NCBI GenBank assembly: GCA_017525875.1
Contig: JAFXSG010000005.1
Location: forward strand, 62,001-126,000
DNA from: Clostridia bacterium
GTDB taxonomy: Bacteria; Bacillota; Clostridia; Christensenellales; CAG-138
Length of the DNA stretch: 64,000 nt
Reading direction: 5' to 3'
Below the pieces are notes generated by a model, which was not told where the DNA came from, ran no database searches, and saw only the letters and a program-made list of their open reading frames with translations. Shown in pieces: positions 18,619 to 59,739 of this stretch. The first letter of the stretch is position 1, and each line of letters opens with the position of its first letter. The translations under genes and the position numbers were made by a program.

Positions 18619-18720
18619 TACCTAAAATCCATATTTTTTTGAAATCATGGTTATATTTTCTTGTATTGCGGCATTTTCGGGGCTTTTCCGTTTTTTTCGC
18701 CAAACGCGGCCCCTTCGCCG

Positions 18721-20188: not shown

Positions 20189-20285
20189 ATTAAATTGTCT
20201 CCGTTTCAAAAGTCGCCAAAACCCCGCAACCGATCTTCGAGCGGAAACCGCCCGAAAACCGGAGTGCGAGGTCTTAAGGTTCAAA

Positions 20286-21638
20286 TCAGCTGAGGAATCC
20301 CTTGTAGGTCCTGGCGAGCATGAGCGAATCGAGCTGATCGGCGACCTCGAGGGAGACGCTGATCATGATCAGGATGCTGGTGGGACCGAAGGCGCTGAGG
20401 GCACGGATGTTCAGCACCTTGAGCAGGACGGTGGGGATGATCGCGACTGCCATGAGGAAGATAGCGCCGAACAGGGTCAGGCGGCTGGACTTGGTCTTGA
20501 GGTAGTCGGAGGTCGGCCTGCCGGGACGGATACCCGGGATGAAGCCGCCGTTCTGCTGGAGATTCTTGGAGATCTCAACAGGATTGAAGGTGATGGAGGT
20601 GTAGAAGTACGCAAATCCCACGATGAGCAGTGCGTAGATCACGTAGTAGATAACGAGACCGACGGGGTTGCTTGAACCCGCGCTCAGATAGGTGGAAACG
20701 AACTTGTAGAAGCCGCTGTTGGGCCAGAACTGACCGATCATCGCGGGGACCTGAAGGATGGTCATTGCGAAGATGAGCGGCATAACGCCGTTTGCGTTTG
20801 CCTTGAGGGGGATATGCGTGGACTGACCGCCGTAGAGCTTCCTGCCCACGACACGCTTTGCGTACTGGACGGGGACCTTGCGGTAGGCTTTCTCGACCAT
20901 GACGATGCCGATAATCATAACAAGCACGACAAGGATAACGACGGGTGCGTACCACCACTTGTATGCTGCCTCACCGGTGGTGGGGGGAGCGATACGGAAG
21001 GTACCGTTGATGAGGTTGATGACGACCTGGGGCACGGAGGAAACGATGGATGCGAAGATCAGCATCGAAACGCCGTTGCCGATACCCTTTTCGGTGATCC
21101 TCTCGCCCATCCACATCAGGAACGCGGTGCCTGCGGTGCAGCAAATGCCGGTGATGATGTAGGGCATGAGGTTGTTCATGAACGTGCCGAAGCCGCTGGT
21201 GCCGAAGAGGGTGAAGCTCTTCATCAGGTTTGCGCCTGCGCTCTGCAGACCGACAACGATGCTGATGGACTGCACAAGAGCGAGGACGACGCCAACGATA
21301 CGGGTGATCTTCTCGATCTTCTTCTGACCGTCCTCTTCCTTGCTGAGCTTCTCGAGCGAGGGGATCGCGATCGCGAGAAGCTGCATGATAATGGACGCGG
21401 TGATGTAGGGCGAGATACCCATTGCGAAGAGCGAGAACTGGTTGAGCGAACCGCCGGAGAAGAGGTTCAGAAAGCTCAGGAAGTCATACTGCTGGATCAT
21501 AGTGCCGAGCTTTGTGCCGTCGACACTGGGCACGGGGATGAAGGAACCGAGACGGTAGACCACGATCAGGATGAGCGTGTAGATCATCTTGGAGCGGATG
21601 TCCTTCACCTTCCATGCGTTGATGAAAGTCTTGATCAT
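20286..21638 (-). CDS. secY: protein translocase subunit SecY
   Basis: Channel-forming subunit of the SecYEG translocon, 450 residues with ten membrane segments. Family landmarks include [18 protein letters not shown] at the start, [13 protein letters not shown] (segment 2 region), [14 protein letters not shown] and the cytosolic loop [18 protein letters not shown]. Its ATG overlaps the rplO stop (ATGA). Confidence 0.98.
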
Positions 21639-22078
21639 TCAGCCACCTCGACAGTTCCGCCCGCCTTAGCGATAGCTTCACGGGCTGATTCGGATACCTT
21701 TGCCGCCTTAACAGTCAGGGACTGTGTGAGCTCGCCGCGGCCCAGAACCTTGAGGCCGTCCTTCTCGATTTTGCTGATGACGCCGGTCTCCTTGAGGAGT
21801 TCGGCGGTGACTACGGTGCCGTTCTCGAAACGGTTGAGATCCGAGACGTTGACAACGCTGTAGACCTTCATGAAGTTGTTGTGGAAGCCTCTCTTGGGGA
21901 GACGACGGGGCAGAGGCATCTGACCGCCTTCAAAGCCGTTCTTCTTGCTTCCGCTGCGCGCCTTCTGGCCCTTGTGACCGTAACCGGCGGTCTTGCCGAT
22001 ACCGGAACCGGAGCCGCGGCCTACACGCTTCTTTGCAGTAGTCGAACCCTCAGCGGGCCTTAACTCATGTAGATTCAT
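21635..22078 (-). CDS. rplO: 50S ribosomal protein L15 (uL15)
   Basis: Start at [20 protein letters not shown], 147 residues, behind GGAGGTCC; a longer upstream frame is not supported. Contains the glycine/arginine-rich [20 protein letters not shown] segment and [17 protein letters not shown]. Overlaps secY by 4 bases. Confidence 0.98.
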
Positions 22079-22089
22079 GCGGGACCTCC

Positions 22090-22275
22090 TTATTCTTCCA
22101 CTTCTTCCACCTTGACAAGGTGTTTCACTTTGAAAATCATGCCGCGGGTGCATGCGTTATCGGGCTTAAGGACGGTGCTGCCGGTCTTGTGAAGGCCGAG
22201 GGCCTTGACGGTGGCCTGCTGGTCCTTGAGAGCGCCGATGGTGCTCTTGACGAGCGTTACTTTAAGCTGTGCCAT
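22090..22275 (-). CDS. rpmD: 50S ribosomal protein L30 (uL30)
   Basis: 61 residues, the short bacterial L30: [20 protein letters not shown] then [20 protein letters not shown]. Lies between rpsE and rplO with 11-14-base gaps, in standard spc order. Confidence 0.96.
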
Positions 22276-22289
22276 TATTGTGTCCTCCC

Positions 22290-22802
22290 TCAGTTAAGGA
22301 TCTCGTCCACGGTCTTGCCGCGCAGGCGAGCGATCTGCTCTGCGGTGCGGAGCTGGGAAAGACCGTCGATGGTGGCCTTAACGCAGTTTGCGGGGTTGTT
22401 GGAACCGTAGCTCTTGGTACGGATGTCCTTGATGCCGACGGATTCGAGCACGCTGCGGACGGGGCCGCCGGCGATAACGCCGGTACCGGGTTCTGCGGGG
22501 AGCATGCGGACATGGCCCTTGGAGAACTTGCCTTCGACTGCGTGGGGGATGGTGGTCCCGACGATGGGGACGGTGATGAGGTGGCGCTTCGCGTCCTCAA
22601 CGCCCTTGCGGACTGCTTCGGGGATCTCAGCGGCCTTACCCATGCCGACGCCAACGCGGCCCTTCTCATCGCCGACGACGATCAGAGCGGAGAAACGGAA
22701 GATCTTACCGCCCTTAACAACCTTTGCAACGCGGTTGACGGAGACGAGCTTCTCTTTGAATTCCGGAACTTCCGGAGTGAAATTACGCCTATTCTGCTGC
22801 AT
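22290..22802 (-). CDS. rpsE: 30S ribosomal protein S5 (uS5)
   Basis: Decoding-fidelity protein. [20 protein letters not shown] and [20 protein letters not shown] are the dsRBD-like N-terminal half; the C-terminal half carries [15 protein letters not shown]. 170 residues, standard. Confidence 0.98.
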
Positions 22803-22813
22803 CTTGTGCCTCC

Positions 22814-23182
22814 TTAGAATTCGAGTCCGCCTTTGCGGGCGCCGGCTGCGAGCTCGGCAACACGACCGGTGTAGAGATAACCGCCGCGGTCGTAAACGAC
22901 CTTGGTGACGCCCTTTTCGATGGCGCGCTTTGCAACGGTCTCGCCGACGATGAAGGCTGCTTCCTTCTTGTTCTTGCCTTCGAGCTGCGCCTTGATGGAT
23001 GCTTCAACGGTGGAAGCCGCCGCAATGGTGTTGCCAACGGAGTCGTCGATGACCTGGGCGTAGATGTGGTTAAGGCTGCGGTAAACGTTCAGGCGGGGAC
23101 GCACGGGAGTGCCGATCAGATGCCTGCGGGTACGGTAGTGGCGTGCCTTGCGCTTTGCATTTTTATCAAGCTTGCTAATCAT
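22814..23182 (-). CDS. rplR: 50S ribosomal protein L18 (uL18)
   Basis: 5S rRNA-binding protein, 122 residues: a basic N-terminus ([15 protein letters not shown]), [20 protein letters not shown], and the C-terminal [20 protein letters not shown]. Standard order between rplF and rpsE. Confidence 0.98.
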
Positions 23183-23200
23183 GATGCTGTACTCCTCCTG

Positions 23201-23740
23201 TTACTTACCGGTCTTGCCTTCCTTGCGGATGATGGTCTCGTAGTCGTACTTGATACCCTTGCCCTTGTAAGGTTCGGGCGGACGGACCTCGCGGATCTCA
23301 GCCGCGATCTGACCAACGCGCTGCTTGTCGATGCCCATGACGGTGATCCTGTTGGGAGCGGGGACGTCAAAGGTGATGCCGTCGCCCTCGGTGAATTCGA
23401 CCGGATGGGAGTAGCCGACGTTCAGAACGAGCTTGTTGCCGTTCTTCTGGGCCCTGTAGCCCGTGCCGTTGATCTCGAGCTTCTTTTCAAAGCCCTTGGT
23501 CGTGCCGACGACCATGTTGTTGATGAGAGTACGGGAAAGTCCGTGCAGGGAACGATCCTCTTTTTCGTCGCTGGGGCGCTCGACCTTGATGATGCCGTTC
23601 TCCTCGCTCATCTTGATGCGGGGATTGATCTTCTGGCTGAGTTCGCCCTTGGGTCCCTTGACGGTGACGGTGTTATCGTCAGAAACCGTGATTGTCACTC
23701 CGGCAGGAATGGTGATCGGAAGTTTTCCGATTCGAGACAT
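23201..23740 (-). CDS. rplF: 50S ribosomal protein L6 (uL6)
   Basis: Two-domain protein near the factor-binding site, 179 residues: [17 protein letters not shown] at the start and the C-terminal [20 protein letters not shown]. It is preceded by a 140-base gap that contains hairpins, unlike the tight gaps around it. Confidence 0.98.
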
Positions 23741-23880
23741 TTTGCACCTCCAAATTATTTTGAAAAAATTATTGCTTTCCGCTTTCCACCGGGGAGGCCG
23801 AAGCCATGAAAGAGGCCCCGGCAGAAGCGGTGATCGCTGTGTTTTAGCCTCCGGCTCTTTTTGAGCCTTAGGCGGGTGAT
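23741..23880 (-). other. hairpin-containing gap between rpsH and rplF
   Basis: 140 untranslated bases in which GGCTC/GAGCC (around AAAAA, 23853-23867) and GGGGCC/GGCCTCCCC arms can pair on the minus strand. No promoter is evident. It could attenuate transcription or bind a ribosomal protein; nothing more is visible. Confidence 0.4.
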
Positions 23881-24279
23881 TTACCAGATGTAAGCGAGAA
23901 CTTCGCCGCCTACGCCCTGCTTCCTTGCCTCGCGGTCGGTCATGATGCCCTTCGAGGTGGAGATGATCGCGATGCCGAGTCCGTTGAGGACCTTGGGGAT
24001 GTTATCCTTGCGGGCATAAACGCGAAGGCCGGGCTTGGAGATACGCTTGAGGCCGGTGATGACCCTGGTGCGGTTCGGACCGTACTTCAGGGTGATGGTC
24101 ATCATCTTCTCGACGCCCTCTTCGTTGACGGTGTAGCCCTTGATGTAGCCCTCGTTCACGAGGATGTCCGCGATAGCGAGCTTCATGACGGAGACGGGGA
24201 CTTCAACGGTGTCGTGCTTGACGATCAGAGCGTTGCGGATCCTGGTGAGCATATCGGCAATGGGATCTGTTACGAGCAT
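23881..24279 (-). CDS. rpsH: 30S ribosomal protein S8 (uS8)
   Basis: Central-domain 16S rRNA binder, 132 residues. [20 protein letters not shown] starts it and the C-terminal [20 protein letters not shown] is the RNA-binding signature. Confidence 0.98.
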
Positions 24280-24296
24280 TGTATTATCCTCCTTAA

Positions 24297-24482
24297 TTAC
24301 CAGCTTGCCTTACGAACTCCGGGGATCTCGCCCTTGTAAGCGAGCTCGCGGAAGCAAACGCGGCAGATGCCGTACTTGCGAAGCACGGAGTGGGGCCTGC
24401 CGCAGATACGGCAGCGGGTGTAAGCCCTGGTGGAGAACTTGGGAGTTGCCTGCTGCTTGTTCTTGAGTGAAGTCTTTGCCAT
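24297..24482 (-). CDS. rpsN: 30S ribosomal protein S14, zinc-binding short form (uS14, type Z)
   Basis: 61 residues with two CxxC pairs (RCRICGRPH and ICRVCFREL) that bind zinc, the form usual in Firmicutes and Actinobacteria. Ends [11 protein letters not shown]. Lies 14 bases from rplE. Confidence 0.97.
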
Positions 24483-24496
24483 TACTGTATCCTCCC

Positions 24497-25114
24497 TTAT
24501 TCGTTGGTTCCGAAGGGCATGCCGAGGAGCTTGAGCAGCTCGCGGGCTTCTTCGTCGGTCTTGGCGGTGGTGACGAAGATAACGTCCATACCGCGGACCT
24601 TGTCGACGTCGTCATAGTTGATCTCGGGGAAGATCAGCTGCTCTTTGAGGCCCATTGCGTAGTTACCGCGGCCGTCAAAGCTGGTGTCCGAAACGCCGCG
24701 GAAGTCGCGGACGCGGGGAAGGACGATGTTCATCAGCTTGTCTGCGAAGTAGTACATGCGGTCGCCGCGGAGGGTTACCTTTGCGCCGACGTTCATGCCC
24801 TGACGGACCTTGAAGTTTGCGACGGACTTCTTCGCCTTGGTGATGACGGGCTTCTGGCCGGCGATGATGCCGAGCTCTTCGACTGCAGCGTCGATACCCT
24901 TGGGGTTATCCTTATCGGAACCGAGGCCCATGTTGAGCACGATCTTCTCGAGCTTCGGGACCTGCATGGGGTTCTCGTAACCGAACTTCTCAACGAGCTG
25001 AGGTACGATCTCCTTGTAGCGAACGCGGAGACGGGCGGGCTCGGTGAACGGTTTGGCTTCCTCGCCCTTGTTCTTTTTCTTTGCGGGAGCCTGTGCTGTT
25101 TCTTTCTTAGCCAC
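24497..25114 (-). CDS. rplE: 50S ribosomal protein L5 (uL5) with N-terminal extension
   Basis: 5S rRNA-binding protein. Core motifs [32 protein letters not shown] and the C-terminal [19 protein letters not shown] are normal. The start codon is GTG behind GGAGG, and about 25 extra lysine/alanine-rich residues ([20 protein letters not shown]) precede the usual start, bringing it to 205 residues against about 180. Confidence 0.97.
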
Positions 25115-25128
25115 GATTATTTACCTCC

Positions 25129-25470
25129 TCAGTCGATGTTCTTGCCGCACTTCTTGCAGGTACGGACCTTGATGGTCTTGTCGCCCTTCTCGATGAAGGT
25201 ATGACCTACGCGAGTGGGCTTCTTGCAGCTGGGGCAAACGAGCATCACGTTGGAAACGTGGATGGTGCCTTCCTGCTCGATCCTGCCGCCGGCCTCGCCC
25301 TGCTTGCGGGGCTTGGTGTGGCGGATGGTCATGTTCCTGCCCTGAACGACGATGCGCTGAGCGGAGGGGTAGACCTTGAGGACCTTGCCGGTCTTGCCGA
25401 CGTCCTTCATATTGTCGCCGGTGATGACCATGACGGTGTCGCCGGTACGAATATTCATCTTACTGCTCAT
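25129..25470 (-). CDS. rplX: 50S ribosomal protein L24 (uL24)
   Basis: Assembly-initiating protein with a KOW motif: NIRTGDTVMVITGDNMKDVG then KTGKVLKVYPSAQRIVVQGR. The C-terminal part has CPSCKKPTRVGH and RTCKKCGKNID, a four-cysteine zinc-ribbon-like ending. 113 residues. Confidence 0.97.
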   Translation of the reverse strand: MSSKMNIRTGDTVMVITGDNMKDVGKTGKVLKVYPSAQRIVVQGRNMTIRHTKPRKQGEAGGRIEQEGTIHVSNVMLVCPSCKKPTRVGHTFIEKGDKTIKVRTCKKCGKNID

Positions 25471-25481
25471 AATTTACCTCC

Positions 25482-25850
25482 TTACAGCACTTCGGGCGCG
25501 AGGGAGACGATCTTCATGTAGTCCTTCTCGCGGAGTTCCCTTGCGACGGGCCCGAAGATACGGGTGCCGCGGGGCTGCTTCTGATCGTTGATGATGACGG
25601 CTGCGTTGTCGTCGAACCTGATGTGGCTGCCATCCTCGCGATGGACACCGGTCACGGTGCGGACCACGACTGCCTTCACAACATCCTTTTTCTTGACTGC
25701 GCCGCCGGGGGATGCGCTCTTGACAGAGGCAACGATGACGTCGCCAATGCTTGCGAACTTCCTCTTGGAGCCGCCAAGAACACGGATGCACATAATTTCT
25801 TTAGCGCCGCTGTTATCGGCAACCTTTAACCTGGTTTGCGGTTGAATCAT
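25482..25850 (-). CDS. rplN: 50S ribosomal protein L14 (uL14)
   Basis: 122 residues, [20 protein letters not shown] and the signature [19 protein letters not shown], ending [20 protein letters not shown]. Standard. Confidence 0.98.
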
Positions 25851-25867
25851 GCTGTCCTCCTAACGGC

Positions 25868-26140
25868 TTACTTAGCCTTCTCGATGATCTTGACGAGACG
25901 CCAGCGCTTATCCTTGGAAAGCGGACGGGTCTCCATGATCCTGACGGTATCGCCGATACCGCACTCGTTGTTCTCGTCGTGTGCCTTGACCTTCAGAGTG
26001 TGGTTGACCATCTTGCCGTAAAGGGGATGGCGGACCTTGGTCTTGACTTCAACGACGATCGTTTTATCCATCTTATCGCTGGTGACGACACCAACGCGGG
26101 TCTTGCGGAAGCCCCTGACGGGAGCATTGTTCATTTCCAT
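25868..26140 (-). CDS. rpsQ: 30S ribosomal protein S17 (uS17)
   Basis: 90-residue OB-fold protein: [40 protein letters not shown], and [20 protein letters not shown]. Standard order after rpmC. Confidence 0.98.
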
Positions 26141-26157
26141 TTTATATCCTCCCTAAA

Positions 26158-26352
26158 TTACGCACGCTCGTTGATAAGAGTCTTGACCCTTGCGATATCG
26201 CGCTTGCATTCCTTCATGAGCATGGGGTTTGCGAGCTGACCGGTCGCGTGGCGGAATCTGAGGTTGAACAGCTCGGCCTTCAGTTCGTTTTCCTTGGCGA
26301 TGAGCTCTTCAACGCTGAGCTGCTGCAGCTTTTCCCATTCTTTCTTATTCAT
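26158..26352 (-). CDS. rpmC: 50S ribosomal protein L29 (uL29)
   Basis: 64-residue helical hairpin at the exit tunnel; [20 protein letters not shown] and [20 protein letters not shown] identify it. It starts 3 bases after the rplP stop. Confidence 0.97.
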
Positions 26353-26355
26353 GGC

Positions 26356-26805
26356 TTACTCCTCCACGGTGTTCTCGGCTGCTGCCGGGGTCTCCAGCTG
26401 TTCCTTCCTCACGAACTTGCACTTGAGGGGGAGCTTGTGCATCGCGAGGCGGAGCGCCTCACGCGCAACGGGCTCTTCGACCTCGGCGATCTCGAAGAGG
26501 ACGCGGCCGGGCTTGACTACGGCTACCCAATACTCGGGGGAACCTTTACCGGAACCCATGCGGGTCTCGGCGGGCTTCTCGGTGACGGGCTTGTCGGGGA
26601 AGATATCTACCCAAACCTTACCTACACGCTTCATGTAACGGGTCATTGCTACACGGGCTGCCTCGATCTGGTTGCTGGTGACCCAGGAGGGCTCCAGTGC
26701 TACGAGACCGTATTCGCCGTATGCGATCCTGTTGCCGCGCATGGCTTTGCCCTTCATGCGGCCACGATGTACCCTGCGGCGTTTAACTCTCTTAGGCATT
26801 AACAT
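26356..26805 (-). CDS. rplP: 50S ribosomal protein L16 (uL16)
   Basis: Protein organising the A-site region of 23S r[23 protein letters not shown] and the signature [20 protein letters not shown] are present; the tail ([13 protein letters not shown]) is slightly long at 149 residues. Confidence 0.98.
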
Positions 26806-26819
26806 AGGTCATATCCTCC

Positions 26820-27470
26820 TTACGCTTTCCTGGCCTTGCTGCGGTTAAGGACCTCGCCCTTGTAGATCCAGACCTTGATGCCGATGCGGCCGTAGGTGGT
26901 CTTTGCTTCGGCAAAGCCGTACTCGATGTCCGCACGGATGGTCTGCAGGGGGGTGGAGCCTTCGTTGTAGCCCTCGTCGCGTGCGATCTCCGCACCGCCG
27001 AGACGACCGCTGCACTTGACCTTGATGCCCTTCGCACCGGCCTTCATGGCGCGGGTGATAGCCTGCTTCATGGCGCGGCGGAAGGAAGTTCTCTTCTCGA
27101 GTGCTGCTGCGATGCTCTCTGCAACGAGCTGAGCGTTTGCATCGGCATTGCGCACTTCGATGATGTTGACGCTGACGGACCTGTTGACGAGGCCCGCGAC
27201 CTCGGCGCGGATAGCGTCGACGCCGACGCCGCCCTTACCGATCAGCATGCCGGGGCGGGCGGTGTGGATGCCGACCGTGACCTTACCGGCTGCACGGGCG
27301 ATGTCGATCTTGGCGACGCCCGCTTCGTAGTACTTGTTCTTCAGGAAATCCCTGATCTTCTTGTCCTCGATGAGGTAGTTAGCGAAGTCCTTCTTATCGG
27401 CATACCAGCGGGTATTCCAATCCCTGATGACGCCAACACGGAAGCCGTTCGGGTTAACTTTCTGTCCCAT
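26820..27470 (-). CDS. rpsC: 30S ribosomal protein S3 (uS3)
   Basis: mRNA-entry protein with a KH domain ([20 protein letters not shown]). [20 protein letters not shown] starts it, and the C-terminal domain has [20 protein letters not shown] and WIYKGEVL. 216 residues. Confidence 0.98.
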
Positions 27471-27482
27471 GGTATGTCCTCC

Positions 27483-27869
27483 TTATTTCTTCTCGTCCAG
27501 GATGATGGTGATGTGGCTGGTGCGCTTGCGGATCCTCGATGCGCTGCCGCGGGAACGGGGCCTGTAACGGCGGAGGGTGGGACCCTGGTTGGCGAAGACT
27601 TCGGCAACGTAGAGGGTCTCGCGGTCCATGTCGAGGTTGTTCTCGGCGTTGGCGATCGCGCTGCGGAGGACTTTGAGGGTGGGCTCTGACGCCGCCTTGG
27701 GGGTGTACATCAGGATAGCCTCTGCCTCGTCTACGCTCTTGCCGCGGATAAGATCGATGACGACCTTGACCTTGCGGGAAGAAATGCGGATGTATTTTGC
27801 GGTGGCGTGGGGGCGCTTTTCGGCGTTTTCCCTGCGCTGTGCTGCCTTTTCTTTAGATCTGAGTGCCAT
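27483..27869 (-). CDS. rplV: 50S ribosomal protein L22 (uL22)
   Basis: Lines the exit tunnel. 128 residues, with [32 protein letters not shown]-like helix and the tunnel hairpin [20 protein letters not shown] followed by RTSHITIIL. The N-terminus has a short basic extension. Confidence 0.98.
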
Positions 27870-27881
27870 TTGAACGCCTCC

Positions 27882-28163
27882 TTATTTGCCGCGGGTGGTC
27901 TTTTCCGAACCGCGGTGGCCGCGGAAGGTGCGGGTGGGTGCGAATTCGCCGAGCTTGTGCCCGACCATATCCTCGGTGATGTAGACCGGAACGTGCTTCC
28001 TGCCGTCGTGCACGGCGATGGTGTGACCGATCATTTCGGGGAAGATGGTGGACGCCCTGGACCAGGTCTTGAGAACGGACTTCTTGCCGGATTCGTTCAT
28101 CGCGATAACGCGGTCAAGCAGCCTTTCGCTCACAAAGGGTCCCTTTTTGATTGATCTGCTCAT
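27882..28163 (-). CDS. rpsS: 30S ribosomal protein S19 (uS19)
   Basis: 93 residues, [20 protein letters not shown] and the signature [20 protein letters not shown], ending [20 protein letters not shown]. Standard. Confidence 0.98.
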
Positions 28164-28184
28164 TATCTATTCTCCCTTCTCGGA

Positions 28185-29018
28185 TCACTTGCCGTCCCTG
28201 CGGCGGATGATGTACTTATCGTTGATGTTCTTCGTCTTCCTGGTCTTGTAGCCGAGTGCGGGCTTGCCCCACGGGGTGACCGGGCCGGGACGGCCGATCG
28301 GGGACTTGCCTTCGCCGCCGCCATGAGGATGGTCGTTGGGGTTCATGACGGAACCGCGGACGGTGGGACGGAAGCCCATGTGACGCTTGCGGCCGGCTTT
28401 GCCGAGCTTGATGTTCGCAAAGTCGATGTTGCCGACCTGGCCGATGGTGGCTTTGCAGTCCATGGGGATCATGCGGACTTCGCCGCTGGGAAGACGGACC
28501 TGCGCGTACTTGCCCTCTTTAGCGAGGAGCTGCGCTGCGTTGCCGGCGCTGCGGACGAGCTGCGCGCCCTTGCCGGGGAGCATCTCGATGCAGTGGATCA
28601 TGGTGCCGACGGGGATGTTCTTCAGGGGAAGAGCGTTGCCGACTTTGATATCGGCGGTCTCGCCGGAGACGATGGTCTCGCCGACCTTAAGGCCGAAGGG
28701 AGCGATGATGTAGCGCTTTTCGCCGTCCGCATAGTTGAGAAGGGCGATGTTCGCGCTGCGGTTGGGATCGTATTCGATCGTTGCGACCTTCGCAGGGACG
28801 TTGTCCTTGTTGCGCTTGAAGTCGACGATGCGGTACTGGCGCTTTGCGCCGCCGCCGCGATGGCGGACGGTGATCCTGCCGTGGTGGTTACGGCCGGCGT
28901 TGCTCTTGAGGCTCTCCATCAGGGAACGCTCGGGAGTGTTGCAGGTGATCTCCTCATAAGCGGAGACGGTCATGAAGCGCTGACCCGGAGTGTTGGGCTT
29001 TATCTTTCTGATTGCCAT
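28185..29018 (-). CDS. rplB: 50S ribosomal protein L2 (uL2)
   Basis: Core peptidyl-transferase-region protein, 277 residues. [40 protein letters not shown] and the C-terminal [20 protein letters not shown], which includes the conserved histidine, are intact. Confidence 0.98.
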
Positions 29019-29030
29019 GATGTTGCCTCC

Positions 29031-29327
29031 TTACTGAGCCATGCTGTCGAAGGCTTCGATGGTCTTGGAATCCTTTTTAAGGGTGATGTAAGCCTTCTTG
29101 GTGGAGGGGCGGCGGCCTTCGAAGCGGCCCTGCCTCTTGATCTTGCCGAGGTGATTGACGGTGTTGACCTTTTCGACCTTAACGCCGTCGAAGATGGTCT
29201 CGATCGCCTGCTTGATCTCGGTCTTGCCCGCCTTCTTGTTCACGATGAAGACATAGGTCTTGTTGCCGATGACTTCGTAGCTCTTTTCGGTGAGCACGGG
29301 CTTGATGATGATGTCGTGAGCGTTCAT
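29031..29327 (-). CDS. rplW: 50S ribosomal protein L23 (uL23)
   Basis: Exit-site protein that docks trigger factor and SRP. 98 residues: IIKPVLTEKSYEVIGNKTYV, KAGKTEIKQAIETIF and RPSTKKAYITLKKDSK. Shares its first base with the rplD stop. Confidence 0.98.
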   Translation of the reverse strand: MNAHDIIIKPVLTEKSYEVIGNKTYVFIVNKKAGKTEIKQAIETIFDGVKVEKVNTVNHLGKIKRQGRFEGRRPSTKKAYITLKKDSKTIEAFDSMAQ

Positions 29328-29947
29328 TATGCGTATACCTCCTCGACCTTGGCGACCGCGTCGCGGGTCGCGATGACGGTGTCGTACTTGAGAACGTCGT
29401 AGGTGTTCAGCATGCCGACGGTGGTGGTCGCAACGCCCTGGATGTTGTTCGCCGCACGGACGACGGTCTCGTTGACTTCGTCGGTGACGATGAGGGCGCT
29501 TTCGGTCTTCAGATTGCCGAGGACCTTGACCATCTCGCGGGTCTTCGCTTCGGGGAGCTCAAGGCTGTCGAGAACGATGAACTTCTCGCCTGCGACCTTC
29601 GCGGAAAGAGCGGACTTGAGGGCGACCCTCTTGAGCTTCTTGTTGAGGCTCAGACGATAGTCGCGGGGCTTGGGTGCGAACACGACGCCGCCGTGAGTCC
29701 ACTGGGGAGACCTGGTGGAACCCTGACGGGCACGGCCGGTGCCCTTCTGCCTCCAGGGCTTCTTGCCGCCGCCGGAGACTTCGGCGCGGGTCTTCGCGCT
29801 CTGAGTGCCCTGGCGCTGATTTGCGAGGTAAGCCTTTACATAGGCGTGCATCGCGGGGACGTTGACTTCCTGGCCGAAGATCGCGTCGGAGAGTTCCATT
29901 TCGCCGACCTTGCTGCCGGACATATTGTAAATAGCTACGTTAGGCAT
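29327..29947 (-). CDS. rplD: 50S ribosomal protein L4 (uL4)
   Basis: Exit-tunnel protein with an extended loop ([32 protein letters not shown], split). In gamma-proteobacteria L4 also regulates the S10 operon through its leader. 206 residues, starting [20 protein letters not shown]. Confidence 0.98.
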
Positions 29948-29959
29948 GTTGTACCCTCC

Positions 29960-30586
29960 TTACTTGACCGTGCTGCGGACGAGAACGAGGCCGCCCTTCG
30001 CACCGGGGATAGCGCCCTTGATGAGGAGCAGATTGCGCTCTGCATCCGCGCGGACGACTTCGAGGTTCTGGACGGTGATGCGCTCGCGGCCCATGTGGCC
30101 GGGGAGATGCTTGGTCTTGAAAACCTCGCCGGGGTAGGTGCAGGCGCCCATGGAGCCCGCTACGCGGTAGGAATGTGAACCGTGGGTCTTGCGGCCGCGG
30201 GCCTGATTCCAGCGCTTGATGTTGCCTTCGAAGCCCTTACCCTTGCTGGTGCCGGTCACGTCAACGTGATCGCCCTTTGCGAAGGTGTCCGCCTTGATGA
30301 CGGTGCCGACTTCGTAGCTTGCTGCATTGTCAAGTTTGAATTCCTTGACGTAACGGTGGGCTTCGACGCCCGCCTTCCTGAGATGACCGAGCTGGGGCTT
30401 GGTGATGAGCTTTTCGCGGACGGGCTGGAACGCCATCTGGACTGCTTCGTAGCCATCGTGCTCAACCGTCTTGACCTGGGTGACGGGGCAGGGACCTGCC
30501 AGAACGACCGTCACGGGGATCATGGTGCCATCTTCGAGGAAGAGCTGAGTCATGCCGACTTTCTTACCCAGAATTGCCTGTTTCAT
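29960..30586 (-). CDS. rplC: 50S ribosomal protein L3 (uL3)
   Basis: 208 residues, [20 protein letters not shown] at the start and the signature [33 protein letters not shown] (split). Assembles early near the peptidyl transferase centre. Standard. Confidence 0.98.
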
Positions 30587-38628: not shown

Positions 38629-38801
38629 TAATTAAGGAAATGACTCCCGCGGGAGTCCTTTTGACCATATGTTCGGCAGGGCGCCTGCCGCGGCGCGGTC
38701 CTCGCGCTCTGCGATCGTCTTGTCGATCCGGCCAAGTCAGCCTGCCGGCTTTCGGCCCGCTGCGTTTGCAAAGGGAAACCCGCCTTAATTCAGTCTTCAG
38801 C
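38629..38801. repeat. 172-bp direct repeat, copy 2 (right of hsp20)
   Basis: Second copy of the repeat at 37649. It holds GACTCCCGCGGGAGTC with TTTT, and its right end runs into the last codons of the GTPase-NYN gene, so that gene's stop lies within the repeat. The rest of 38473-38789 has the hsp20 terminator and no gene. Confidence 0.8.
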
Positions 38802-41405
38802 ATCCTCCCCGCCGTCCGGCAGTTCGATTTTAACCGCGGCGGCGCTCTTTTTGAGGGCGTTCATGATCTCGGCGAGCTTTTCGTTCACGCCTTCGACCTC
38901 CGCTTCAAGCTCCTTCGCGGTCACGCGAAGCGCCCCGGTCCGCACGCTCGCAAGCTGGATCATCCCGTCCGACGAGGCGACGCGCACAGCGTAGTTTTTT
39001 CCGACCTCGGCGATAAAACGCTCGATCAGCATATCGGCGGTCTCGTTCTCGCGGGTGTAGGCGACGCGCACGCCGTGGTAATTGAACCGCTCGCCGGCGT
39101 TGCCCTTGACGCGGTAGCCGTCGAACACCAGCACGACCTCGTTCTTTTTGTAACCGCAGTAGTTGGCGAGGATATCCATCAGCCTTTTGCGGGCGGCGGC
39201 AATATCGCTCTTTGCAAGCTCGCGCAGACCGTCCCACGCGAAGATGATATTGTAGCCGTCCACGATCAGGTAGTCCTTCTTAGGCGGCTGCGGCGGGAGC
39301 GGGCGCTCCGGCTCCGGGTCTTGCGGTTTCGGCGGGCGGCGCAGCTCGGTCGGTTTTTCCGGGCCGAACTCGCGCTCCATTATGCGCCGGAGCTCCTTTT
39401 CGTCCACGTCCAGATTGCGGCGGACGAGCTTTGGCTCCGCAGTCCCGGCGCGCGGCGTGCGGGAGAGGCCCGTGTCGATATGCATATAGTTCTCCACCCT
39501 GTCCCAGCGGACGGCAAAACCTGCGCCGTGGGCGCAGAAGACCGAATCGGGTGTGTTTTCCAAATCGCGCTCCGGGTCGTAGCCCGTTTCCGCGATGACT
39601 TCCTCCGCGTTTTCGCAGCGGCCGTAGTGGGAGACCTCCGATGAGAACCTGCCCTTGCCGGCGGTGTACGCGGCGAGCTCCCGCGCATAGCCGCGCAGGC
39701 GGGCGACGGGCGCAAAGCCGGTGATGACCGCCGTTCCGTCCCCGCCGTCCTCCTCCATGGAGAAGCTGCCGCCCATCATGCGGATATCGCCTATCGCACG
39801 GCCGAGCTGTTCCCTGGGCAGCTCGATGCGGAAGGAATAGAAGGGTTCCAATAGTATGCTCTCCGCCTTCATCAGCCCCTGGCGGATCGCGCGGTAGGTC
39901 GCCTGGCGGAAATCCCCGCCCTCGGTGTGGGCAAGGTGCGCGCGCCCCGCGACGAGGCTTATGCGGATATCGGTAACGGGCGAGCCCGTCAGCACGCCGA
40001 GATGCGTTTTTTCGGCTATATGAGTTAAAATCAGCCGCTGCCAGTTGACGTCGAGGTCGTTTTGGCTCACGAGCGAGCGCATCTCGATGCCGCTGCCCGG
40101 TTCGAGCGGCTCGAGCAGCAGGTGTACCTCCGCATAGTGGCGCAGCGGCTCGTAGTGACCTATGCCCTCCACCGGCCCCGCGATAGTTTCCTTATACAGC
40201 ACGCGGCCCTGATCGATCCCGGCGTCGAGGTCGAAGCGTTCCTTGATGAGGCTTTTCAGGATCTCGATCTGCACCTCGCCCATCAGCCGCGCGCGGATCT
40301 CTCCCAAACGGCCGTCCCACTCGATCTGCAGCGTCGGGTCCTCCTCCGAAAGCGTTAAAAGCCTGCGGAACGCGGCCTGCGTGTCCGTGCCTGCGGGCAG
40401 CGTGATGCGGTATTGGAGCACGGGCGAGAGCATTGCCGCGAAGGTCTTTTTCTCCGCCTCAAGGCCCAGCCCTTCGCCCGGGTAGGTCGAGCTGAGACCC
40501 GTCACGGCAACGACCTCGCCCGCTTCCGCCTCGTTGAGCTGCGTGTATTTTTCCCCGAGATACAGGCGGATCTGGGCTATCTTCTCGGTCCTTTCCTCGC
40601 CCTCGAGGGTCTTTAGAGCGATCGGCATGCGTGCGGTCAGCTTCCCGCCCGTCACGCGGAGATGCGTGAGCCTTGCGCCCTGCGCGTCCCGCGAGATCTT
40701 GTAGACCCTTGCGCCGAACTCCTGCGGGAATGAGGGCGCGGCGGTGAACCTTTCAAGCCCCTCGATGAACCCCGGAACGCCGGTCAGGCGCAGAGCGGAA
40801 CCGAAAAAGCACGGGAAGAGCCTTTCATCGCGGATGGCATCCGAAAGCGCCGCGTCCGTGAGTTTGCCGTTTGAAAACAGTTCAAAAAGAGCGTCGCACG
40901 TCAGGGCGGCGTTCTCGTTCCTCTCCCCGTCCGGCACGGAAAAATCCACGCAGGCGGGCGAAAGCTCGCGGGAGAGTTCCGAAAGCAGGTCCGCCCTCGA
41001 ACGCTCCGCGATATCCATTTTGTTGATGAAGATGAAGGTGGGGATATGCAGCCTGCGCAGCAGCCGCCAAAGCGTCAGCGTGTGCGCCTGCACGCCGTCC
41101 GTCCCGCTTGAAAGGAGCACGGCATAGTCGAGGATGCGCAGCGTGCGCTCCGCCTCCGCCGAAAAATCGACGTGCCCGGGCGTGTCGATGAGCACGGCGT
41201 TCAGTTTTTCCGTTGAGATATCCGCCTGTTTTGAAAAGATCGTGATACCGCGCCTGCGTTCGAGCGCGTGCGTGTCGAGATGGGCGTCGCCGTGATCGAC
41301 GCGCCCGCGGCTCCTGACGCGCCCCGTGAGGTACAAAAGCCCCTCGCAGAGCGTAGTTTTGCCTGCGTCCACGTGCGCGAGTATGCCGATCGCGGTCCTC
41401 GTCAT
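38790..41405 (-). CDS. EF-G/TetM-like GTPase fused to a YacP/Rae1-like NYN nuclease
   Basis: An 871-residue two-part protein. Residues 1-640 form a ribosomal-protection-type translational GTPase: G1 HVDAGKTT (11-18), G3 DTPGH (74-78), G4 NKMD (128-131), then EF-G-like domains ending with a domain V region (YSFRIELPREQLGRAIGDIR). After a proline-rich linker (about 675-708) comes a YacP/Rae1-type NYN domain (709-855) with the four acidic motifs VDGYNIIF (Asp716), LVFDGY (Asp762), ENETAD (Asp791) and ASSDGMIQ (Asp813). Rae1 in Bacillus cuts mRNA in the ribosomal A site, so the fusion suggests ribosome-targeted mRNA cleavage. The ATG overlaps the upstream stop (TAATG). Tetracycline resistance should not be assumed. 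Confidence 0.85.
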   Translation of the reverse strand: MTRTAIGILAHVDAGKTTLCEGLLYLTGRVRSRGRVDHGDAHLDTHALERRRGITIFSKQADISTEKLNAVLIDTPGHVDFSAEAERTLRILDYAVLLSSGTDGVQAHTLTLWRLLRRLHIPTFIFINKMDIAERSRADLLSELSRELSPACVDFSVPDGERNENAALTCDALFELFSNGKLTDAALSDAIRDERLFPCFFGSALRLTGVPGFIEGLERFTAAPSFPQEFGARVYKISRDAQGARLTHLRVTGGKLTARMPIALKTLEGEERTEKIAQIRLYLGEKYTQLNEAEAGEVVAVTGLSSTYPGEGLGLEAEKKTFAAMLSPVLQYRITLPAGTDTQAAFRRLLTLSEEDPTLQIEWDGRLGEIRARLMGEVQIEILKSLIKERFDLDAGIDQGRVLYKETIAGPVEGIGHYEPLRHYAEVHLLLEPLEPGSGIEMRSLVSQNDLDVNWQRLILTHIAEKTHLGVLTGSPVTDIRISLVAGRAHLAHTEGGDFRQATYRAIRQGLMKAESILLEPFYSFRIELPREQLGRAIGDIRMMGGSFSMEEDGGDGTAVITGFAPVARLRGYARELAAYTAGKGRFSSEVSHYGRCENAEEVIAETGYDPERDLENTPDSVFCAHGAGFAVRWDRVENYMHIDTGLSRTPRAGTAEPKLVRRNLDVDEKELRRIMEREFGPEKPTELRRPPKPQDPEPERPLPPQPPKKDYLIVDGYNIIFAWDGLRELAKSDIAAARKRLMDILANYCGYKKNEVVLVFDGYRVKGNAGERFNYHGVRVAYTRENETADMLIERFIAEVGKNYAVRVASSDGMIQLASVRTGALRVTAKELEAEVEGVNEKLAEIMNALKKSAAAVKIELPDGGEDAED

Positions 41406-42094
41406 TATTTTTTGAAGCTCAGGATGATCCCGAGCGCGATGGACAGAGCCGCCGCCATTATGACCTGATACTCCGCCGGGAGCAGGAAGGTGAGCGTGTG
41501 CGCCGGGATCCAGAAGAACGGGATGGTCTTCAAAACCGTGAACGAGATGAAGCCGTAGAAGTCGATGCCCGTCACCACGCCGCGAAGGCCGGGCTTTTTC
41601 GCGCCCGCCGCGCGCAGCTCGAGATATTTATCGGTGCATTTGTGGAACGCCATGAACACCGGCCCGAAGGTGAGGTTCATGAGCGCGGCGGTATAGAACG
41701 CGCGAAGGAGCTCGCGCCAGAAGCCCTCCTCCGGCGCCGGAAGGAGCTTTTTCTCCAGCATGCCGAGAACTCCCTGCGTGTAGAGCTTCATCATGAACGT
41801 GATCGCGACGCCGATAAGCCCCCATATAACGATGCGGGCGACGACGTACACGGGCAGTGCCCACGCTTTTTTCTTAATGCGCAGCGCGAGCACCTCTCCG
41901 ACGGTCGCGAGCAGAGCGAACTTGATAAAGCCCATGATATACGGATGACTCGAGCTCAGGCTTTTGAACACTTCGCGGCTCGCGGGGACGATCAGCACGA
42001 GCGCGAACGCCGCGAGGATGAGGAAACAGGCCGCTGCGACGGCGGCCTGCGCTCCCTTTGAGGGGGTGACGGGTTTTTGTTTGTTTGCTTTCAT
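41405..42094 (-). CDS. membrane protein of unknown function
   Basis: A 229-residue protein with about five or six membrane helices (AAVAAACFLILAAFALVLIV, then IMGFIKFALLATVGEVLAL, PVYVVARIVIWGLIGVAI, and a C-terminal pair ending AAALSIALGIILSFKK). The ending FFWIPAHTLTFLLPAEYQV resembles bacterial proteins loosely grouped with Mpv17/PMP22, a weak clue. It lies 8 bases after the acyltransferase-like gene and overlaps the GTPase-NYN start by one base, so all three are made together. Confidence 0.55.
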   Translation of the reverse strand: MKANKQKPVTPSKGAQAAVAAACFLILAAFALVLIVPASREVFKSLSSSHPYIMGFIKFALLATVGEVLALRIKKKAWALPVYVVARIVIWGLIGVAITFMMKLYTQGVLGMLEKKLLPAPEEGFWRELLRAFYTAALMNLTFGPVFMAFHKCTDKYLELRAAGAKKPGLRGVVTGIDFYGFISFTVLKTIPFFWIPAHTLTFLLPAEYQVIMAAALSIALGIILSFKK

Positions 42095-46746: not shown

Positions 46747-49017
46747 ATGAATAAAAACCATGACAGCATCGAGATCATCGGTGCGTCCGAGAACAATCTG
46801 AAGCATATCGACGTGACGATCCCGAAGGGCCGTTTGGTCGTCTTCGCGGGCGTGTCCGGATCCGGCAAGTCCTCGCTCGCGTTCGACACCGTCGCCGTGG
46901 AATCGGAGCGCGAATGGCAGCAGAGCTATCCGCTGTTCATCCGCAACCGGATGCCGCATTACGACCGCCCGAAGGTGGACGAGATCCGGAACCTTACGCC
47001 CGCGATCGTGGTGGATCAGCGCCCCATCGGCGCCTCCTCCCGCTCCACGGTCGGCACGGCTGTGGACGCTGCGCCGCTCATGCGCCTGCTCTTTTCCCGC
47101 GTGGGAAAGCCGAGCGCAGGAGGCTCCATGGCGTATTCCTTCAACCACCCCGCCGGGGCGTGCCCGGACTGCACCGGCATCGGAGAGCAGATCGAGCTCG
47201 ATAAGGAGAGCATGTTCGACCCGGACAGGAGCCTTGCGGAGGGCGCGATCCTGTTCAGCCAGTTTTCATCGGGCTGGCAGACGGTCTATTACCAGAACAA
47301 TCCCCTGCTCGACCCCAATAAAAAGCTGCGCGATTTCAGCCCCGAGGAATGGAAGGTGCTCACTTACGGCCCCGACGAACCGCTCATGGTGGAGTTCAAG
47401 TGCAATAACGCGGGGCGCATCGACTACCTGCCCTACGAGGGCGTGTATCTGCGGTTCGAACGCGTCTATATGAAGCGGGACATCACCAAGCTGAAGAAGA
47501 AACTGCAGGACGAGATCTTGACGCACGTCCGCCGCGGCTTCTGCAGGACCTGCGGCGGCTCCGGCCTTAACCCCAAAGCGCTGGCGTCGAAGATCAACGG
47601 AAAGAACATCGTCGACTGTATGGATATGACCGCCGCGGACCTTCTGCCCTTCCTTGCCGCCATCGACGACCCGCGCGGAAGCGCGCTCGCGAGGCAGATC
47701 GCAGCATACCTTGAGCGCATGATCGACGTGGGCGTGGGCTATCTTTCCCTCTCACGCAGGACGGAGACCCTCTCCGGCGGCGAAGCCCAGCGCCTCAAGA
47801 TCGTTCGGAACCTGGGCGGCTGTCTCAACAACGTCACCTTCATCTTCGACGAACCGACCGCGGGCCTGCATCCGGCGGACGCGGCGCGCATAGGCCGAAT
47901 GCTGCTTGAGCTGCGCGAAAGGCACAACAACGTGCTCGTCGTGGAGCATTCCCGGCAGATGATCGCTCTTGCGGATCACGTGATAGAGCTTGGGCCCGGC
48001 GCGGGTACGGCGGGCGGAGAGGTCGTTTTCGCAGGAACGCTTTCCGAGCTGCAAAAAGCCGATACGCCCACCGCGCAGGCGATGGCTCATAAGATCGCGC
48101 TGAACCGCGCCCCCCTGCCCTTCTCGGAGAGCTATCCCATCCGCGGCGCGTGCTGCCACAACCTCAGGCACGTGAACGTCGATATCCCGAAGGCCGTGCT
48201 GACCGCCGTGACCGGCGTTGCGGGCAGCGGGAAAAGCTCGCTGATGCGCTATGAGTTCCCCAAAATGTATCCCGGCGCGATCGTGATCGATCAAAAGCCG
48301 ATCGGCACCTCCATCCGCTCCACGCCCGCCACTTACACCGGCGTTATGGATGAGATAAGGCGCGTCTTCGCAAAGGAGAACGGCGTCGGCGCGGGCTGGT
48401 TCTCGTTCAATTCCGAGGGCGGCTGCCCGGTCTGCCGCGGCACGGGGCAGATCAGCTATGATATGGCGTTTGCGGAGCCGGTGACGATCACCTGCGAGGA
48501 ATGCGGAGGGCGGAGGTACAACCCCACCGCGCTGTCGTACCGCTATAAGGGCATGAACATCGAAGACGTTATGGCGCTGACCATCGGGCAGGCGTATGAA
48601 TTCTTCGACAACGCAAAGATAAAAAAGCTGCTTGAGAGCATGATCGGCGTGGGCCTCGACTACCTCACGCTCGGTCAGCCGACGAGCACCCTTTCTGGCG
48701 GCGAGATCCAGCGCGTGAAGCTGGCGAGCGAGCTGCACAAGAAGGGACAGGTCTACGTTCTCGACGAGCCCAGCATCGGCCTTCACAGCAAGGATACCGA
48801 GCTGCTGCTCGCGCTTCTTCGCAGGCTCGTGGCGGGCGGCAATACCGTCGTTATGATCGAGCACCGGCCCGAAATGATCGCGCAGGCGGATTGGATCATC
48901 GACATGGGCCCCGGCGGCGGCTCGGACGGCGGCGAGATCGTGTTCGAGGGCACGCCGGAGGAGCTCGTCCGCTGCGATAAGTCTAAAACGGGCAGAGCCT
49001 TGCGGGAAATGATATAA
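46747..49017 (+). CDS. UvrA-like ABC ATPase (class II, short form)
   Basis: A 756-residue twin-ATPase protein: Walker A GVSGSGKSS (about 35-43) and GVAGSGKSS, signatures LSGGEAQR and LSGGEIQR, Walker B FIFDEPTAGLH and YVLDEPSIGLH, and zinc-finger cysteines CPDCTGIGEQ, CRTCGGSGLN, CPVCRGTGQI and CEECGGRRY. It is shorter than housekeeping UvrA (about 940) and, as in UvrA2/DrrC-like proteins, appears to lack most of the UvrB-binding insertion. Such proteins are linked to repair of bulky adducts or antibiotic self-protection. It follows the ABM/CAT-like genes but has its own promoter. Confidence 0.86.
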   Translation: MNKNHDSIEIIGASENNLKHIDVTIPKGRLVVFAGVSGSGKSSLAFDTVAVESEREWQQSYPLFIRNRMPHYDRPKVDEIRNLTPAIVVDQRPIGASSRSTVGTAVDAAPLMRLLFSRVGKPSAGGSMAYSFNHPAGACPDCTGIGEQIELDKESMFDPDRSLAEGAILFSQFSSGWQTVYYQNNPLLDPNKKLRDFSPEEWKVLTYGPDEPLMVEFKCNNAGRIDYLPYEGVYLRFERVYMKRDITKLKKKLQDEILTHVRRGFCRTCGGSGLNPKALASKINGKNIVDCMDMTAADLLPFLAAIDDPRGSALARQIAAYLERMIDVGVGYLSLSRRTETLSGGEAQRLKIVRNLGGCLNNVTFIFDEPTAGLHPADAARIGRMLLELRERHNNVLVVEHSRQMIALADHVIELGPGAGTAGGEVVFAGTLSELQKADTPTAQAMAHKIALNRAPLPFSESYPIRGACCHNLRHVNVDIPKAVLTAVTGVAGSGKSSLMRYEFPKMYPGAIVIDQKPIGTSIRSTPATYTGVMDEIRRVFAKENGVGAGWFSFNSEGGCPVCRGTGQISYDMAFAEPVTITCEECGGRRYNPTALSYRYKGMNIEDVMALTIGQAYEFFDNAKIKKLLESMIGVGLDYLTLGQPTSTLSGGEIQRVKLASELHKKGQVYVLDEPSIGLHSKDTELLLALLRRLVAGGNTVVMIEHRPEMIAQADWIIDMGPGGGSDGGEIVFEGTPEELVRCDKSKTGRALREMI

Positions 49018-58236: not shown

Positions 58237-59739
58237 TCAGGCAGCGTCCTGCACTGCAAACTGTATCTGCCAATCGGTGCATACTGAGCTGCCTTCCGGC
58301 ATGTCCTGATACTGCACCCTGCCGAGGAAGGCAGTATCGGCACTCGCCGTGAACTCCATGTGTTCGATCCAGTAATTGATACCGTTCTGCTCGCAGAGGC
58401 GCACTGCTTCCTCCTCGGTCAGACCGATAAGGTCGGGCATTACTATCCAGAACCGCGGGCGGAGGAGCTCATCCCTTACGTAACGCTCTTCGGTGGCGAG
58501 CGAGAGTATGCGCATCTGCAGCTCTGTGACCTTTGCCGCATCCTTGTTGATCAGCGTGTTAAGGAGCTGCGAAAGCGTGTATTCGTGCTCCGGCGCGGTG
58601 AAAGGCTCCGCCGAAGAGGAGATGACCACAGTGCCGCTCTCGCTGCCGGGCACTGCCTCAAGGCCGATGCCGAGATCCTCGACTACGAGCCTTGCCATTT
58701 CGAGCGAGGCCCGAAACTGCTCCTCTGTGCCTCCGTGCAGGGCAATAACGAGCTTGCCGGGCATATCCCGGGTAATGTAGCCGTTTTCATCAAGCACAGC
58801 GAGAGTTGTCATCACCGTTTCCGCGATGCTGTTGCCTCCGCCAAAATCGCAGCTTGCAAGAACGCCCCCGCTGTTCTGCTCGCCGTTACCGAAAGTGAAT
58901 ACGACGCTGTCCAGCTCTGTCACGCCGGCATAGAAGATCCTGTTCGCCGCGTCCCAGTAGCGGGTCTCGGGGGTGTTGACAAAGCCGCTCAGCTGTATAT
59001 CCACCTGCATATAGAGGGGCAGATCGTTCGGATCGGCCTTCTGCAAGGCGTTTACGTCCTCCTGCGGCTGCTCCCTGATCACGAGCTGAAGCTGCTCCTC
59101 GCCCGTCTGCACGGTATCGACATCCATCTCGTATCCTGCCGCCGCAGAGCGGATCGTATCCGCAAGCACCTCGAGCAGGCCTTCGCCGCCTTCGCCGCCG
59201 ACGGAAAGGAATATGCTCCTGTCGACACTCTCCGCCGTGATGTATCCGCTGCGGATCAGCAGGTTCACCACGGTGATCGCGGCGTTTTCAAAGCTCATGC
59301 CGGTAAAATCGACGTCCTTTATCAGCTCCGCTCCGTCATCGTTTTTGCCGGTGACCTCTATTATCATCCCATCCTCATCCACATTGAACTCAACCTCGGG
59401 GTTGATGCTCAGAGTGACGAGAACGCCGACCTTTTTCTGCGGCTCCGGTGTTGTTTCGAGGGCCAGGACCGTGGGAGTCGCGGCATTGGCGGTTTCGGTG
59501 ACAGGCGTTCCGCTCTGCGCCGAGGCTGTCCCCGGCTCTCTGACGAGCGATCCTATGACTGCTGCCGCCACGACGACCAGCGCAAGCGCCGCGGCGGCGG
59601 GCAGCACCATTCTCAGCGCGCGGCGTCTGCGCAGCTTTCGGGCTGCGGCTTCCTCCGCAGCCTTCGCCACTTGGGTGCGAAGCCCGTTTTTCATGTCCTC
59701 CGGCATTACAATCTTATCAAAAGAATCCTTTATGCTCAT
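58237..59739 (-). CDS. RsgI-like anti-sigma factor with C-terminal PASTA domain
   Basis: A 500-residue single-pass membrane protein. A cytosolic N-terminal segment (1-42) precedes the membrane helix (43-66); the external part begins with an RsgI-type domain whose SINPEVEFNVDEDGMIIEV contains the Asn113-Pro114 pair at which RsgI proteins cleave themselves. A second such domain repeat (LYMQVDIQLSGF...) lies around 240-400, and the end (about 432-500, FWIVMPDLIGLTEEEAVRLC onward) is a PASTA domain, which binds peptidoglycan fragments or beta-lactams. It overlaps its ECF sigma gene by ATGA, so it should hold that sigma factor until a wall signal releases it. Confidence 0.78.
   Translation of the reverse strand: MSIKDSFDKIVMPEDMKNGLRTQVAKAAEEAAARKLRRRRALRMVLPAAAALALVVVAAAVIGSLVREPGTASAQSGTPVTETANAATPTVLALETTPEPQKKVGVLVTLSINPEVEFNVDEDGMIIEVTGKNDDGAELIKDVDFTGMSFENAAITVVNLLIRSGYITAESVDRSIFLSVGGEGGEGLLEVLADTIRSAAAGYEMDVDTVQTGEEQLQLVIREQPQEDVNALQKADPNDLPLYMQVDIQLSGFVNTPETRYWDAANRIFYAGVTELDSVVFTFGNGEQNSGGVLASCDFGGGNSIAETVMTTLAVLDENGYITRDMPGKLVIALHGGTEEQFRASLEMARLVVEDLGIGLEAVPGSESGTVVISSSAEPFTAPEHEYTLSQLLNTLINKDAAKVTELQMRILSLATEERYVRDELLRPRFWIVMPDLIGLTEEEAVRLCEQNGINYWIEHMEFTASADTAFLGRVQYQDMPEGSSVCTDWQIQFAVQDAA

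Follow-up and report, generated by a model that had tools for sequence, protein, structure and literature searches.

The nuclease Rae1 is a translation-dependent endonuclease that acts in the ribosomal A site (PMC12320835, PMC10100781, PMC8266666), and in Bacillus subtilis its gene is co-transcribed with yacO, the homologue of rlmB (PMC6613710). Tetracycline ribosomal protection (Tet) proteins bind the ribosome at sites that overlap those of elongation factor G (EF-G) and of the drug in the A site, and Pro-509 of Tet(M) is located in the drug site (PMC8161019). A protein combining a TetM/TetO-like GTPase with a YacP-like NYN nuclease was reported from ten species of Clostridiales in 2015; it was filed under the Tet proteins, and an RNase-aided antibiotic resistance was suggested for it (Atkinson 2015, PMC4342817), so that the architecture as such is not new. 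Here, we analysed a gene matched to these proteins via the described architecture, which lies in a window of 64,000 nucleotides of a Clostridia bacterium of the Christensenellales (contig JAFXSG010000005.1, positions 62,001 to 126,000). In contrast to the earlier assignment, the encoded fusion protein does not reach the Tet cut-off; it is widespread, and its distribution is that of a substitute for Rae1. In our judgement, it is probably the form that Rae1 takes in these bacteria, i.e. an mRNA endonuclease that associates with ribosomes and is attached to a translational GTPase of its own. Among the literature matches listed, PMC4342817 alone reports the fusion; two papers on Rae1, Leroy 2017 and Condon 2018, were outside the coverage and might mention it. 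New in the present analysis are the genome-wide replacement pattern, the trees bearing on a single fusion, the recognition of a non-Tet GTPase family by its tip and tail, and mislabelled entries in RefSeq. The gene and its parts are located in the window as follows:

38790..41405, minus strand: whole gene, translational GTPase plus Rae1/YacP-type NYN nuclease, 871 aa, a single uninterrupted open reading frame (ORF) with ATG start
39609..41405, minus strand: EF-G/Tet-type GTPase with domains G, II, III, IV and V, residues 1-599 (Pfam; TetM structure alignment)
39906..39947, minus strand: domain IV tip loop 3, residues 487-500 (GRAHLAHTEGGDFR), different from the Tet(M) and EF-G controls
39471..39608, minus strand: family-specific C-terminal tail of the GTPase, residues 600-645 (including DSVFCAHGAGFAVRWDRVENYMH), preceded by C597 of domain V
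39276..39470, minus strand: linker, residues 646-710, a short conserved helix-like element followed by a proline-rich stretch (alignment)
38820..39275, minus strand: NYN_YacP (Rae1-type) nuclease domain, residues 711-862 (Pfam; PDB sequence match)
39258..39260, minus strand: D716, acidic residue 1 (VDGYN), in 195/195 rows
39120..39122, minus strand: D762, acidic residue 2 (VFDGY), in 195/195 rows
39033..39035, minus strand: D791, acidic residue 3 (ENETAD), in 195/195 rows
38967..38969, minus strand: D813, acidic residue 4 (SSDG), in 195/195 rows

The domain assignments were obtained from searches with the translated protein. Pfam placed GTP_EFTU at residues 5-218 (E 2.8e-45), EF-G_D2 at 230-306, EFG_III at 328-397, EFG_IV at 400-515 and EFG_C at 518-599, and the motifs AHVDAGKTT, RGIT, DTPGH and NKMD, which are conserved across the family alignment, together with domains G and II-V identify a translational GTPase of the EF2 family. 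The TetM structures 3j9y and 5kcs align with residues 5-594 (E 3.8e-68), and the GTPase half can be aligned to TetM and TetO across almost its full length. The complete TetM/EF-G-like GTPase of the initial annotation, which had been made from the letters of the window alone, is thereby borne out. The same holds for its proposal of a YacP/Rae1-like nuclease at the C-terminus: NYN_YacP was found at residues 713-853 (E 1.8e-42, 145.6 bits compared to a gathering score of 24.6), and the C-terminal 161 residues match the B. subtilis YacP/Rae1 chains 5mq9 and 5mq8 (E 2.5e-23) and nothing else in a PDB sequence search at E 0.01. The four acidic residues that had been pointed out are all present and lost in none of the homologues aligned: D716, D762, D791 and D813, as well as N719 and E795, all of which we take to be the metal-binding residues of the NYN fold, are invariant in 195 of 195 aligned NYN rows, fused and stand-alone (183 distinct sequences, 113 of them fused, including the window's own, L001, and 70 stand-alone). 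The nuclease domain shares its acidic residues with Rae1 of B. subtilis, but the latter is a separate protein encoded beside yacO whereas the domain in the window forms the C-terminus of a GTPase of 871 aa, the gene of which lies next to other genes.

That both activities had been assigned to one protein was correct, as a single ORF of 871 aa holds all five EF-G/Tet domains plus NYN_YacP. The alternative of two separate genes joined by a base error is ruled out by the joined frame being common to 113 distinct full-length fused sequences, the window's included. Twenty diverse fused proteins, again including that of the window, can be aligned along their length, and the best 80 of at least 590 relatives in the named genome collection are all fused (80/80), with 31 from Oscillospiraceae and 22 from Lachnospiraceae; the named relatives belong to the Clostridia. 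The proline-rich linker described initially applies to the window protein but not to the family, in which the linker measures 56-143 residues (median 73, 113 fused rows) and contains a short conserved element of the type E-L-x-x-I-F-E-R-T-Y-G in 90 of 113 fused rows (loose pattern). Between domain V and this linker lies the family-specific tail at about residues 600-645 (C597 ... SVFC624 ... H642), which is absent from the first description. Frames of 420-437 aa, which occur in the sample of the order, had raised the possibility of a second type of NYN fusion; for the two that were read (L045 and L047), this was rejected because each is a stand-alone rae1 whose frame, taken from stop to stop, overlaps with an RlmB-type gene.

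The reading of the fusion as a form of Rae1 is based in part on its distribution. The class of the window was sampled with 393 genomes, each at least 90% complete and with frame lengths taken from stop to stop. NYN_YacP was detected in 250 of them, and the frames fell into two length groups: fused-length in 127 genomes and 160-239 aa, corresponding to the stand-alone form, in 100. Of the fused genomes, 121 were called via the NYN frame and 6 via the GTPase frame, and all 127 have a GTPase match at E<=1e-145; 10 NYN genomes are broken or odd (7 of these with GTPase) and 13 were not listed singly. More than one NYN match was present in five genomes, namely G284 with both complete forms, the only such genome found, G370, in which a second NYN is represented by two small fragments, and three with sub-threshold matches. 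Stand-alone Rae1 is almost never retained beside the fusion, and this pattern suggests that the fusion stands in for a housekeeping nuclease. In the window genome, the fusion is the sole NYN_YacP match; in the window's family, NYN was found in 7 of 18 sampled genomes (window genome included), all of fused length, and in the window's order in 50 of 248. A phylum sample yielded NYN in 163 of 299 genomes, with fused-length frames in 12 genomes outside the class, five of which were read; the sole genome with two matches there, G815, has both of stand-alone length. Three genomes with a fused copy (G120, G174 and G208; L088, L087 and L086) additionally contain an ORF of 163-165 aa that matches the first third of NYN_YacP below the threshold.

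The surroundings of the stand-alone gene differ from those of the fusion. In all eight stand-alone loci read, seven from the order and that of G284, rae1 lies next to a gene for an RlmB-type methylase; in two of them, a sigma-70-type gene was confirmed as a further neighbour, and the annotation of C. difficile shows the gene order rlmB-NYN-sigH. Because the rlmB-type neighbour recurs in these eight loci, in C. difficile and in B. subtilis, we infer that stand-alone Rae1 is the older form and that the fusion takes its place. In the window, this typical position is not found, and the neighbours are instead a 229-aa ORF, a 500-aa ORF and Hsp20. The vicinity of an rRNA-methylase gene would also suit an older prediction for NYN/YacP proteins, cited in PMC4342817, according to which the nuclease matures rRNA or tRNA, with the GTPase serving as an assembly or maturation factor. 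We regard this as improbable, since Rae1, the nearest characterised relative, acts on translated mRNA, and since the GTPase half belongs with EF-G and the Tet proteins, which enter the A site, and not with the assembly GTPases.

We compared the GTPase half with Tet proteins and EF-G, with which it shares the five-domain layout and the G motifs. The fusion of the window reached 399.2 bits with NCBIfam tet_protect, about half of what Tet membership asks (775 bits), and two further fused members reached 424 and 405 bits, whereas a Tet(M) control scored 880.5 bits and passed both the tet_protect and the Tet(M) cut-offs. Unfused members of the family (L170, 458 bits; L179, 408 bits) and the Tet-like rows L188 (518 bits) and L189 (606 bits) are likewise below 775 bits. 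With regard to EF-G, the fusion has other tip loops and scores 265 bits compared to the cut-off of 659.4. Loop 3 of domain IV reads GRAHLAHTEGGDFRQ in the window protein and GLYYSPVSTPADFRM in Tet(M), such that HTEGGDFR replaces SPVSTPADFR and the loop III signature of Tet proteins (SPV with Pro-509 in Tet(M)) is missing; loop 1 reads GHYEPLRHYAEV, which both the Tet(M) control and the EF-G control lack. The tip residues H493, T494, G497 and D498 are conserved in 112, 113, 111 and 112 of 113 fused rows, and the tail residues C597, C624 and H642 in 113, 109 and 109, each of the seven being found in 26 of 26 unfused rows. The tail with its conserved Cys and His thus comes after domain V with or without a fused nuclease, those unfused GTPases whose sequence was inspected stop just past it, and it is lacking in the Tet(M) and EF-G controls. 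Together with the linker and the nuclease, tips and tail set the fusion apart from Tet(M) and Tet(O). The GTPase half has the tip loops of a distinct translational GTPase family and, by the NCBI cut-off, is not a Tet protein.

These results bear on the proposal of 2015 that the fusion is a tetracycline-type ribosomal protection protein to which an RNase was added as a further means of resistance. Its similarity to TetM and TetO structures extends from end to end, and the triple mutant S508A P509A V510A of Tet(M) can retain activity (PMC4750697); therefore, the missing loop alone does not exclude drug protection. RefSeq names one fused protein, from Agathobacter (L251:3968-6769, NZ_CP143948.1), and one unfused protein, from Ligilactobacillus (L252:3001-4920, NZ_CP047413.1), TetM/TetW/TetO/TetS tetracycline resistance protein, but both have a GGDF-type tip loop and the SVFC tail where a Tet loop would be expected; the RefSeq name of L254, a fused protein from Monoglobus, is translation factor GTPase family protein. 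Some mobility is possible as well: the NYN domain was matched in 23 of 72,556 plasmid records and in 12 of 50,697 phage records, and the best two of the latter hold the whole fusion in frames of 878 and 890 residues (L255:1793-4426, MT835563.1, and L256:1760-4429, MT835514.1, coordinates approximate). These two are unverified human-faecal 'Bacteriophage sp.' scaffolds and may represent host DNA in the viral fraction or a phage-carried copy. The whole protein, covered to at least 80%, was found in only 2 of 72,556 plasmid records, and a plasmid-borne drug-resistance cassette was rejected on this basis. A conserved operon partner was rejected, too, as the commonest neighbour cluster occurs in 7 of 40 loci, these being the loci with sufficient flank among 80 named ones. 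Given the scores far under the Tet cut-off, the replaced drug-facing loop, the rarity on plasmids and the unconserved neighbourhood, we consider a resistance device unlikely. The initial annotation had preferred a rescue or quality-control factor to a resistance protein, and this part agrees better with the data than the printed proposal does: fused and stand-alone Rae1 substitute for one another from genome to genome, the GTPase is far under a cut-off that Tet(M) passes, and the drug-facing loop differs. In the mechanism put forward with it, GTP would be used to reach stalled ribosomes and the mRNA would be cut there. The tetracycline-resistance label of the two RefSeq members is unsupported by their sequence; should labels of this kind be frequent, gut metagenomes would yield inflated resistance counts. 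A PADLOC search gave no match, and an anti-phage system was rejected.

The GTPase family also exists without nuclease. Unfused translational GTPases with the HTxGGDFR-type tip and the SVFC..MH tail (L170-L187, L190, L231-L237 and L252) are commonest in one family of the class sample, f42, and one is located on a megaplasmid of L. salivarius beside rpsN. Of 112 genomes in which Rae1 stands alone, 21 contain such a GTPase, compared to 6 of 143 genomes without any Rae1 (Fisher p 0.0003, uncorrected for kinship), which gives a hint that the unfused GTPase may be a partner of Rae1. In a tree of 75 GTPases, 43 fused rows formed one clade (Shimodaira-Hasegawa-like approximate likelihood ratio test, SH-aLRT, 99) nested among 25 unfused family rows, with seven Tet/EF-G rows outside; this was a quick search, in which long branches were flagged. 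In the tree of the NYN domains (44 fused and 70 stand-alone rows), 3 changes were counted and a single fused clade was not rejected (approximately unbiased test, p-AU 0.698). The trees fit a single fusion event onto an older GTPase family that persists in unfused form. One stand-alone NYN (L027:1483-2004, minus strand, genome G209) nests among the fused ones; no RlmB-like gene was seen among the neighbouring ORFs inspected, and the genome also carries an unfused GTPase (L179). L027 is probably a later split of the fusion.

With regard to the access of Rae1 to paused ribosomes, the fusion, which replaces Rae1 in 127 of 250 NYN-bearing genomes of the class, points to a candidate delivery factor, and the question can be addressed with a single protein. 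We infer ribosome binding, GTP gating, the cutting site and a role in rescue for the fusion. In its GTP form, the EF-G-like half would bind the factor site of paused or stalled ribosomes with an empty A site, its domain IV would probe the A site, and the GTPase would then hydrolyse GTP and withdraw; thereafter, the NYN domain on its linker of about 70 residues would reach the exposed A-site codon and cut the mRNA, and the ribosome would be passed to rescue by transfer-messenger RNA (tmRNA) and the mRNA to decay. A sequential action is proposed here since EF-G/Tet-type domain IV and Rae1 are both placed in the A site. The linker, at its median length, is in principle long enough for the NYN domain to reach this site, and a tmRNA was found in the window genome (182.9 bits). 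As a tentative extension, which we put forward as possible rather than probable, the fusion would be a GTP-gated, tethered A-site mRNA endonuclease; an undescribed GTPase family with SVFC...MH tail and HTEGGDFR tip would locate stalled ribosomes and bring Rae1 to them, acting in cis in many Clostridia of the gut and in trans, from separate genes, in lineages like f42. Alternatively, the GTPase alone might split or clear stalled ribosomes, and the NYN domain might later act on released mRNA or tRNA outside the A site. The conservation of the GTPase without NYN in the 26 unfused rows, and hence a job of its own, would agree with this, as would a blocking of the A site by bound domain IV, but Rae1 acts during translation and we therefore find this alternative doubtful.

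Several points weigh against the fusion being a tethered form of Rae1 that acts in the A site. Domain IV and Rae1 cannot occupy the A site simultaneously, and no experiment on any family member was found in the literature searched. Rae1 of B. subtilis works alone, without a fused GTPase; the fusion is therefore not required for cutting. NYN_YacP had no match in 143 of 393 genomes of the class and in 11 of 18 of the window's family, and the absence from the former shows the function to be dispensable. The Tet-like outgroup row L188 has much of the tip pattern (HTHGGDFR, HYEPKKHYAEV), though not the whole tail, and the tip pattern is therefore not strictly confined to this GTPase family. Regarding the co-occurrence of unfused GTPase and stand-alone Rae1, 14 of the 21 genomes belong to family f42 in a test that takes no account of kinship, 12 of the 112 genomes were assumed to be stand-alone, and the 21 do not include G130 and G376, the matches of which are Tet-like. 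The NYN trees comprise 145 columns and are poorly resolved. A second GTPase tree comprised 67 rows, three plasmid-borne rows having been added and six named rows as well as five that were long or cut having been omitted; here, the free search placed the unfused Ligilactobacillus protein within the fused group; the tree in which the 36 fused rows were constrained together was 31 log units better than the free search (p-AU 0.877).

The remaining features of the window are:

41405..42094, minus strand: upstream ORF of 229 aa, the stop of which overlaps the start of the fusion gene by 1 base (TAATG; sequence)
14390-30586, minus strand: S10-spc-alpha-type ribosomal protein cluster with secY and rpoA, about 8 kb from the fusion gene
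58237-59739, minus strand: RsgI-like anti-sigma central domain joined with a PASTA domain
46747-49017, plus strand: ABC protein of 756 aa with a UvrA DNA-binding-type domain

Owing to the overlap of stop and start, the 229-aa ORF and the fusion gene are probably co-transcribed in the window genome. The ORF had no blastp match (E 1e-5) in the searched flanks of 88 relatives' loci, and none of the five window neighbours tried had a homologue in the relatives' flanks searched. A prophage at about 14-31 kb was rejected, as ten ORFs gave no phage structural match and seven ORFs are ribosomal proteins, SecY and RpoA; the ORFs confirmed by Pfam in this cluster are L17, RpoA, SecY, S3, L2, L4 and L3. 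The 756-aa ABC protein, which is presumably shorter than UvrA proper, is followed by MarR-type, glutathione-peroxidase and cation-efflux genes.

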